Under the pieces are notes generated by a model. The model was not told the origin of the DNA, did no database searches, and worked only from the letters and a program-made list of their open reading frames with translations. From positions 1,240,001 through 1,304,000 of the forward strand of contig NZ_CP100448.1 of assembly GCF_024227715.1 (NCBI RefSeq): a stretch of DNA of 64,000 nucleotides, read 5' to 3'. Made by a program: the position numbers and the translations under genes. Shown here one piece after another: positions 34,798-36,827 of the stretch (positions within the stretch are counted from its first letter, which is position 1; every line of letters starts with the position of its first letter). Source of the stretch: Halomarina litorea. Lineage in GTDB: Archaea; Halobacteriota; Halobacteria; Halobacteriales; Haloarculaceae.

Positions 34798-34863
34798 CAC
34801 GGGCGCGCCGAAACGCAACCGTTAAACGTGATTCCCCGATACAATCTATTGCAGACGAGGACT

Positions 34864-34938
34864 GCTCTGATGGTGTAGTCCGGCCAATCATATCACCCTC
34901 TCACGGTGATGACCGGGGTTCGAATCCCCGTCGGAGCA
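34864..34938 (+). tRNA. tRNA-Glu (anticodon CTC)
   Basis: The gene is 75 nt. Acceptor strands GCTCTGA and TCGGAGC pair with one T-G wobble. The anticodon stem-loop TCACC-CTCTCAC-GGTGA gives CTC. The T arm is CCGGGGTTCGAATCCCCGT, and A34938 is the discriminator. CCA is not encoded. A TATA-like GTTAAACGT lies about 40 bp upstream. Confidence 0.96.
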
Positions 34939-35035
34939 TTTTCCCACTCTCGAACCGCGAGCGACAGCGAGCGTGTTCTGAAACGAAATGTGGAGACGGG
35001 ATTCGAACAGCGAGCGAACGGAAGTGAGCGAGTGA

Positions 35036-35056
35036 GTTCGAATCCCCGTCGGAGCA
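35036..35056 (+). repeat. 21-nt copy of the tRNA-Glu 3' end
   Basis: GTTCGAATCCCCGTCGGAGC plus one A is identical to the last 21 nt of the tRNA at 34918-34938. Such a copy just downstream of a tRNA is what remains of an integration event, or of local recombination at tRNA genes. The 97 bp between holds no gene. A run of the GAGCGAACGGAAGTGAGCGAG type fills it. Confidence 0.75.
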
Positions 35057-35166
35057 CTTCTACCGAAGCCGACCCGTGAGCGACGGTGAGCGCGTTCGTT
35101 CCCGATATCCGTTACCCCGCGCACCAGTGACGCTCGACGTATTCCAGAACGACGTCGACACAGAGA

Positions 35167-35379
35167 GAGTACGTTTCGTCTGTTCAGCTGTGTGAGGGTG
35201 GGGGAGGAGTTGGTCGGACAGGGGGTGAGTACGTTTCGTCTGTTCGTCACGGTGGCACACACGCCGGCGTGTGCTCGCCGCCGCGGACGGAGAGTAGATT
35301 TCGCCTGTTCAGGGGTATCGGCGGGCGTCCCGGACCGTCGGCGGGCATCCCGAGGCGAGTGAGTACGTTTCGCCTGTTC
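35167..35379 (+). repeat. Four direct 19-bp origin boxes (ORB-like)
   Basis: Boxes are at 35167-35185 and 35227-35245 (GAGTACGTTTCGTCTGTTC, identical), 35292-35310 (GAGTAGATTTCGCCTGTTC, three changes) and 35361-35379 (GAGTACGTTTCGCCTGTTC, one change). The core TTTCG-CTGTTC is kept in all four. No long G-run follows, unlike many euryarchaeal ORBs. They probably bind the Orc1/Cdc6 protein encoded at 35613. Confidence 0.88.
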
Positions 35380-35493
35380 CTCGACGCCGCTTCGCGGGTA
35401 TCCACGCAGCTCCGAGAAGCCTATAAAAGATATTTGAAACTTTCGATTGCGGCAAATCAACTCTCTCTAGCTACCACCCTCTCTCTAGTCTAC

Positions 35494-35548
35494 GAACAGA
35501 CGAAACGTACTCACTCTCTCTGGTATAAACGAGACCGACAGACGAAAC
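35494..35548 (-). repeat. Two inverted origin boxes
   Basis: Positions 35494-35512 (GAACAGACGAAACGTACTC) are an exact reverse complement of the first two direct boxes. Positions 35538-35548 (ACAGACGAAAC) keep an 11-bp core of the same box. They face the direct boxes across the A/T-rich stretch. A TATA-like GTATAAAC lies between them at 35523-35530 and may serve orc1. Confidence 0.85.
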
Positions 35549-35612
35549 ACGGGAAACACACGAAGATAAACACGTAAGTAGACAGACCGTCGCATAGGGA
35601 ACGTTCAGTCAC

Positions 35613-36827
35613 ATGGCAGGGAATCCGAGCCCGTTCAGCGACGTGACCGAGACGCTGTTCGCGGACAAGACGGTGCTCGACGAGGAGTACCAGCCGTCGA
35701 CGATACTGGAACGGGACGCGGAGATATCGGCGTACACCAACGCGCTCAGACACGTCCTCTTCGGTCGGAACCCCCAGAACGTCTTCGTCTACGGGAAGGC
35801 CGGAGTGGGCAAGACCGCCGTGACGCAGTACATGCTCGACGCGTTGCAGGGCGAGGCGGCCGACCGCGAGGAGGCCGACGAACTCCACGTCCTCTTTCAC
35901 AACTGCAACGGCGACAGCGCCTACGGGACGCTTCGGTCGCTCATCAACACCCTCCGGGACGTGGGACCGGACCACGACGACGCGTTCCCGAAGAAGGGCC
36001 TCTCGATGGGCGACGCACTGGAGACGTTCTACGGAGCGCTCGAAGAACGAGGTGGAACCTTCCTCCTCGTCCTCGACGAGATCGACCACCTCTCGGACGC
36101 CAACTCCCTGCTGTACGAACTCCCGCGAGCGCGGGCGAACGGCCACCTCGACCGGGCGAAGGTGGGTGTCATCGGCATCTCGAACAACTACACGTTCCGG
36201 GACTCGCTCGCGCCAAAGGTCAAGGACACGCTGATGGAGACGGAGATCTCCTTCTCGCCGTACGACGCCGACGAACTGTACACCATCCTCGACCACCGCG
36301 TCGAACAGGCGTTCGTCGACGGGAGCTGTGACTCGGGGGCTATCTCCAAGAGCGCCGCCCTCGCCGCCCGCGACACGGGGAGCGCTCGGCAGGCCATCGA
36401 CCTCCTGCGGACCGGCGGCGACATCGCCGAGGAACGCGGCGAGTCCGTCGTCACGGCCCAGCACATCGACGAGGCACAGGACCGGGTTCAGCGCGGGCGC
36501 GCCACCGACAAGATTCGCGACCAGACCCGCCACGGGCAACTCGTCCTCGAAGCCGTCGCTCGACTGGAGGACGCCGGCGAGTCGCCCGTCCGTTCGAAGC
36601 GCATCCAGGCGACCTACGAGGAGGTCGCTCGGTCGGCGGGCACGGACCCCCTGACGACGCTCAAGAGCATCCAGAACCACCTCGGGGACCTCACCATGCT
36701 CGGCTTCCTCAACCGGACGGAGCGCAACGAGGGGCAGTCCGGCGGGGTCTACTACGAGTACGAACTCTCGCTGGACGTCGAGGCGGTGTTCGAGGCCCGA
36801 GAGGCCATCGAATCCCAGCGGACCTGA
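35613..36827 (+). CDS. cdc6: Orc1/Cdc6-type replication initiator
   Basis: The 404-residue AAA+ protein recognises origin boxes and loads the replicative helicase. Walker A is GKAGVGKT at residues 61-68, and Walker B is LLVLDEID with D155 and E156. A sensor 1-like ISNN follows, and the sensor 2 region is DTGSARQAIDLL. The C-terminal winged helix lies near residues 320-400 (SIQNHLGDLTMLGFLNRTE). The gene is directly beside the origin array, which is the usual cis arrangement. The length is typical. Haloarchaeal genomes carry several orc paralogues; this one would be expected to bind the box sequence seen upstream. Confidence 0.95.
   Translation: MAGNPSPFSDVTETLFADKTVLDEEYQPSTILERDAEISAYTNALRHVLFGRNPQNVFVYGKAGVGKTAVTQYMLDALQGEAADREEADELHVLFHNCNGDSAYGTLRSLINTLRDVGPDHDDAFPKKGLSMGDALETFYGALEERGGTFLLVLDEIDHLSDANSLLYELPRARANGHLDRAKVGVIGISNNYTFRDSLAPKVKDTLMETEISFSPYDADELYTILDHRVEQAFVDGSCDSGAISKSAALAARDTGSARQAIDLLRTGGDIAEERGESVVTAQHIDEAQDRVQRGRATDKIRDQTRHGQLVLEAVARLEDAGESPVRSKRIQATYEEVARSAGTDPLTTLKSIQNHLGDLTMLGFLNRTERNEGQSGGVYYEYELSLDVEAVFEAREAIESQRT

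Follow-up and report, generated by a model that had tools for sequence, protein, structure and literature searches.

The stretch of DNA analysed here, 64,000 nucleotides of the Halomarina litorea genome and in the following called the window, carries five 19-bp boxes and a sixth, partial one, which flank an AT-rich stretch and lie upstream of an intact orc1/cdc6 gene (Table 1). Spacings between the boxes are 60, 65 and 69 bp, and the AT-rich stretch is among the three most AT-rich spots of the window. Two criteria of an archaeal orc1/cdc6-linked origin are met by this arrangement: an intact orc1/cdc6 gene directly adjoining the boxes, and repeated boxes, part of them inverted, around an AT-rich stretch. 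The tRNA-Glu gene at 34863-34939 has its 3' end duplicated 118 bp downstream (34918-34941 / 35036-35059; 24 bp, 96% identical), possibly an att-like scar that a past integration left by the origin. This adjacent duplication, hinting at an old integration, would suit the idea that the repeats belong to a mobile element and have nothing to do with replication, or else are an artefact of chance or coding; however, shuffled windows contain on average 0.03 matches to GAGTACGTTTCGTCTGTTC, none of them reached five, and the same boxes stand by the same gene in dozens of genera. This explanation is contradicted by the comparative data, and we consider its probability negligible.

Table 1. Features of the origin-like locus (positions within the window; mismatches are counted against GAGTACGTTTCGTCTGTTC, which boxes 1 to 4 match on the + strand and box 5 on the - strand)
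Feature	Position	Strand	Remarks
ORB-like box 1	35167..35185	- (ORB reading)	0 mismatches; GAACAGACGAAACGTACTC on - strand
ORB-like box 2	35227..35245	- (ORB reading)	0 mismatches; same sequence as box 1
ORB-like box 3	35292..35310	- (ORB reading)	3 mismatches; GAACAGGCGAAATCTACTC
ORB-like box 4	35361..35379	- (ORB reading)	1 mismatch; GAACAGGCGAAACGTACTC
AT-rich stretch between boxes 4 and 5, probable duplex-unwinding element	35416..35476	.	37.7% GC vs 68.3% in the window
ORB-like box 5	35494..35512	+	0 mismatches (perfect); inverted relative to boxes 1-4
Box 6, partial, tail-less, by the orc start	35536..35548	+	CGACAGACGAAAC; inverted copy
orc1/cdc6 initiator gene	35613..36827	+	404 aa, intact; TIGR02928; Cdc6_lid, Cdc6_C winged helix
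Codon of Orc Lys128, initiator-specific motif (ISM) FPKKGLSMGD	35994..35996	+	co-varies with box base 18
Codon of Orc Gln375, winged-helix (wH) wing tip NEGQSGG	36735..36737	+	co-varies with outer box bases

All the elements that the first-pass annotation had listed (four direct boxes, an AT-rich stretch, one perfect and one partial inverted box, then orc1/cdc6) were located, and it was also right in stating that the boxes lack a G-run. In the ORB reading the boxes take the form GAACAGACGAAAC-GTACTC, an ORB-like core followed by a tail that is GTACTC or a near variant; a G-run is absent from all window boxes, whose tails read GTACTC, CTACTC and again GTACTC, while oriC1 of the same genome (gene at C1:332.8 kb) carries, in the same search frame, the canonical G-string box TTCCACCCGAAACGAAGGGGTGGG. 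The haloarchaeal G-string criterion for ORBs, a G-stretch at the box end (Wu et al. 2012), is thus fulfilled by none of the five window boxes. With 30-34% identity to the oriC1 Orc, the window Orc does not qualify as an orthologue of Cdc6-1 (the oriC1 family) either. The genome-wide box search proposed in that annotation, allowing up to three mismatches, proved the box to be scarce, with only three further sites in the whole 3.88-Mb genome. Two of them, C1:1491256 (1 mismatch; inside a peroxiredoxin-like coding frame) and 2237887 (3 mismatches; isolated in an intergenic gap), were rejected as origins for want of support and look like chance matches. The third adjoins a truncated orc paralogue at C1:2.704 Mb, the boxes of which read GAGCATACGAAATGTACTC. 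The surrounding region (L028, C1:2694000-2712000) is a cluster of orc genes, truncated or containing stop codons; as one of these retains GAGCATACGAAATGTACTC boxes, the genome holds one more GTACTC-type pair, which has a different head and appears to be decaying. A different K128 family (ISM PDKG) is represented on the 94.5-kb contig C5 by its sole orc (L032, at about 1.6-4.2 kb), where eight boxes TTTCACCGGAAAC(G/A)(T/C)GGTGT, likewise without GGGG, were observed.

The window Orc scores 400 bits with the orc1/cdc6 model TIGR02928, for which the curated cut-off is 181.3, and its best matches in the PDB are the crenarchaeal Orc1 structures 2v1u and 2qby. In the alignment, Lys128 is the partner of the Thr of PFTGLS in A. 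pernix ORC1, a motif present at the ISM site in both 2v1u and 2qby_A, and residue 375 falls on the A. pernix Orc1 wing arginine Arg369 (R369); the numbering offset between chain and publication amounts to 12 and is consistent for both pairs. For A. pernix Orc1, four arginines near the DNA have been reported, R345, R346, R367 and R369, and its ISM touches the G-track according to a summary of the crystallography (PMC9738581). In an AlphaFold model of the window Orc (mean pLDDT 83, pTM 0.64), residue 375 occupies the turn joining the two strands of the wing, and residue 128 directly precedes the ISM helix.

Relatives of the window Orc were collected by a tblastn-type search, 54 of them in named haloarchaeal genomes, and the family is present in 80 of 391 sampled Halobacteria genomes. 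Nearly every full-length member has like repeats beside the gene, mostly upstream and often downstream too, at similar distances and in similar orientation; a relative from the same genus (L094) has kept both gene and boxes. The box set is therefore not exclusive to this genome; a large haloarchaeal family shares it. Most relatives have a degenerate box at the distance of box 6 (about -57 to -88), and the downstream array present in most of them is absent from the window locus. About 72 family loci carry a GTACTC-type tail (GTACTCTCT or a near variant), and 22 close relatives have a true G-string tail (GAGGGGTGT; GAGGGG) with unchanged head and core and with the same box layout. The tail is thus an exchangeable part of the box, and lack of a G-run is one of its states; close relatives combine the same head and core with GAGGGG. 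The heads vary as well, with GAACAG, GAACAC, AAGCAC, AGACAG and GAGCAT found in the family.

Some loci of this and other families deserve separate mention. Recognisable boxes were not found in the flanks of L172, L174 and L175 (ISM PAKG/AAKG). In L171 (G202 C3:938.5-944.7 kb) most of the ISM is deleted (RSGDS) and a stop codon occurs, with the boxes still present. On a Halocatena marina plasmid (L090) a GTACTC-type orc has upstream of it a 56-bp tandem array with eleven boxes (GAACAGACGAAACGTACTGTCTCT), and six loci (L039, L040, L048, L052, L072, L078) combine GTACTC and G-string boxes around one orc gene, for which a second Orc, since lost, is a conceivable explanation. His occupies ISM position 128 in other Orc families (L254, L255, L257, L259 and L016), where the boxes (AACAAATCGATAGGGGTG, with a central ATCGAT) lie outside the two-residue rule described below. 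No replicon with a GTACTC-type Orc as its sole Orc was found; the nearest members on plasmids have further orcs on the same replicon. A relative from Halobacterium salinarum (L074) was considered as a counterpart of orc10, the NRC-1 gene located at a mapped origin, and was rejected, since L074 is matched by none of the NRC-1 orc primers. Those for orc8 instead hit a sister family of the window Orc, and the orc10 primers gave no match in the genome of L074 with an N-filled query, a query form too weak to prove absence.

Which residues of the Orc follow the tail of the box? In the family alignment only columns 128 and 134, both in the ISM, fully separate the two tails: residue 128 is Thr with the G-string (FPETGLSTSH; 22 loci) and Lys/Arg with GTACTC (FPKKGLSMGD; 72 loci), and ISM residues 124-143 hold six of the 20 best tail-separating columns (p=0.0002). 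A cross-family test added 97 haloarchaeal orc loci belonging to many families and kept those with significant repeats. Here a GGGG tail was present at 26 of 36 loci with Thr128 and at none of 42 with Lys/Arg128. A strict rule equating T128 Orcs with GGGG was discarded because of the ten T128 loci lacking GGGG; the form based on base 18 fits better. Across families, among 74 ORB-type loci, base 18 is G in all Thr128 loci (30/30) and never G in the Lys/Arg128 loci, which have T (37) or C (2) in 39/39 cases. Of all columns, 128 predicts base 18 best (97.3%), and columns 127 and 134 rank next. H. hispanica cdc6K, with its proven ARS, was tried as a K128 case and ruled out, being T128.

The head of the box is tracked by the wing. 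Out of 404 columns, residue 375 predicts the three head classes best, with 97.9% accuracy (next column 88.7%): GAA goes with Arg, Gln or Lys, AAG/GAG with Leu and AGA with Glu. The best family tree yields six GAA-AAG contrasts that are disjoint, all of them Arg-Leu. Across families, Leu375 corresponds to G at base 3 in 13/13 and its absence to another base in 61/61 loci (74/74 in total), and the supported independent contrasts are 6/6 concordant (p=0.031). A plasmid Orc examined afterwards (L299; wing Leu, GAGCAC/AAGCAC boxes) fits the residue-375 rule, as do four partial genes outside the first table, and the truncated paralogue of the same genome combines Leu375 (NYGLRGG) with GAG heads and a GTACTC tail, as the contact code predicts.

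The box alignment is ungapped with GAA as anchor, consensus bases are majority calls, and the Orc trees were built as quick searches. Statements on base 3 and base 18 refer to the 74 loci with consensus C at base 4, a filter chosen mid-analysis; when the full set of 89 repeat-bearing loci is considered, Leu375 is missing from four loci that have G at base 3, and G stands at base 18 in two loci with Lys128, in all cases in repeats that are not of the ORB type. Discovery and testing of the residue rules drew on overlapping data, except for L299, the four partial genes and the truncated paralogue. Shared ancestry alone, without any recognition, might in principle produce the co-variation: many residues are inherited together within clades, and the family tree has a single tail switch and likewise a single change of residue 128. 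Nevertheless, head and residue 375 switch jointly seven times, the 6/6 supported contrasts agree across families, and the best of the 404 columns are one aligned to a known DNA-contact Arg and one in the DNA-contacting ISM, leaving ancestry alone an improbable explanation. Independent contrasts for residue 128 across families are fewer (2-4 concordant, 0 discordant).

The co-variation of residue 128 with base 18 and of residue 375 with base 3 supports the view that box and Orc at this locus form a matched pair, a view derived from sequence comparison in which binding itself is inferred, no binding data being available. The first-pass annotation had likewise seen box and neighbouring Orc as a matched pair that may have a specificity of its own, which agrees with the co-variation of box and DNA-contact residues at about 100 loci. 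Its idea of a separate specificity is supported, with the addition that a large haloarchaeal family shares the boxes. A further criterion, specificity of the boxes for the neighbouring initiator (linkage specificity), is met via the co-variation at about 100 loci together with the genome-wide scarcity. With somewhat better than even confidence, we propose that the pairs residue 375/base 3 and residue 128/base 18 may constitute a modular code setting the origin of each paralogue, so that G-string and G-free origins coexist in a single cell without cross-talk.

Taken as a whole, we interpret the locus as an Orc1/Cdc6-linked haloarchaeal origin with its own recognition pair (probability roughly 0.77), binding, unwinding, firing and autoregulation being inferred. 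What the sequences themselves show is the anatomy, the presence of such boxes next to the gene in some 100 relatives, and the co-variation of both contact residues with their box bases. The window Orc would bind boxes of the form GAACAGACGAAAC-GTACTC, its winged helix reading head and core with wing Gln375 facing the outer GAA, and its ISM, with Lys128 in place of Thr, reading the GTACTC tail where a G-tract would sit. The AT-rich stretch, at which DNA opening and MCM loading are predicted, lies between boxes 1-4 on one side and the inverted boxes 5-6 on the other, and through box 6 by the orc start the Orc would probably autoregulate its own gene. Unwinding, firing and autoregulation are inferred by analogy with known archaeal origins, in the case of firing without support from replication profiles, ARS assays or binding experiments.

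The boxes could alternatively be operators only, used by a non-initiator Orc (similar to Orc1-2 of Sulfolobales) that represses or activates its own gene without any start of replication. Orcs of the Orc1-2 type are non-initiators that control other genes upon DNA damage. Some archaeal Orc1 paralogues are indeed transcription regulators (PMC9738581), several haloarchaeal orc loci have no ARS activity (PMC3528665), and a degenerate box near the orc start occurs in almost all relatives. An operator would, however, hardly need arrays extending hundreds of bp upstream, nor the downstream boxes of the relatives, nor boxes placed left and right of an AT-rich stretch, and the layout recurs in the sister clade with G-string boxes; we therefore hold this to be improbable. 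Somewhat more plausible, albeit still unlikely, is a dormant or decayed origin, formerly active and Orc-binding and normally silent under the dominance of other origins. Haloferax mediterranei provides proven cases of dormant orc-linked origins (PMC4595724), box 3 of the window has three mismatches, the downstream array of the relatives is missing, and the genome has about ten full-length orc genes plus fragments. On the other hand, the gene is intact, two upstream boxes and the inverted box are perfect, and L094 of the same genus retains gene and boxes, all of which speaks against this reading.

A haloarchaeon can have a dozen Orc paralogues or even more, and by what means each one locates its own origin is an unresolved question. 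The linkage specificity between Orc paralogue and ORB has already been published (PMC3528665, PMC4010727). The halophile-specific G-string is described as standing at the end of each haloarchaeal ORB and as likely read by the AAA+ domain (PMC3936714, PMC4010727), and its mutation abolished the function of H. hispanica oriC1 (PMC3528665, PMC3936714). No ORB was detected in the IRs of Haloarcula hispanica cdc6B, C and F, which had no ARS activity (PMC3528665, PMC3936714). One survey found G-string boxes at 102 of 154 orc genes (PMC3528665) and another limited its selection to such boxes (PMC4595724); since published surveys retained only G-string boxes, a common G-free class may be missing from origin maps. 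We found no description of GTACTC boxes in openly licensed papers (without supplements), which is no proof of novelty. By inference the locus would work like an ORB origin, yet it lacks the G-string by which such origins are defined, and it is accompanied by a large class of G-free boxes elsewhere. The residue-to-base pairs make origin choice directly testable, one amino acid against the preferred base, and if the two-residue match is true, the pairing of initiator and origin would be readable from sequence.

Among known systems, haloarchaeal oriC1-cdc6A (Wu et al. 2012, 2014; Norais et al. 2007) shares with the window the inverted repeats around an AT-rich stretch by orc1/cdc6, the GAAAC core and an initiator with AAA+, ISM and wH elements. 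Its boxes, however, end in a G-string reported to be essential, those of the window in GTACTC, and its Orc is a different paralogue, the window ISM having Lys128 instead of Thr. H. hispanica oriC2-cdc6E (oriC2-type) has boxes on both sides of the gene, as do most relatives of the window Orc; the window differs in lacking downstream boxes, and the published ORBs were chosen for their G-string. The Halobacterium NRC-1 orc8 family (L180, L179 and L184, identified by a match to published primers) is a sister family with related GAACACTCGAAA boxes, but retains Thr128 and the GGGG tail. Finally, Sulfolobus and Aeropyrum Orc1 on ORB (2qby, 2v1u) share the fold and the contact elements (the wH wing Arg and the ISM) with the window Orc, the difference being that their ISM PFTGLS sits on a G-tract, whereas the window combines PKKGLS with a GTACTC tail.
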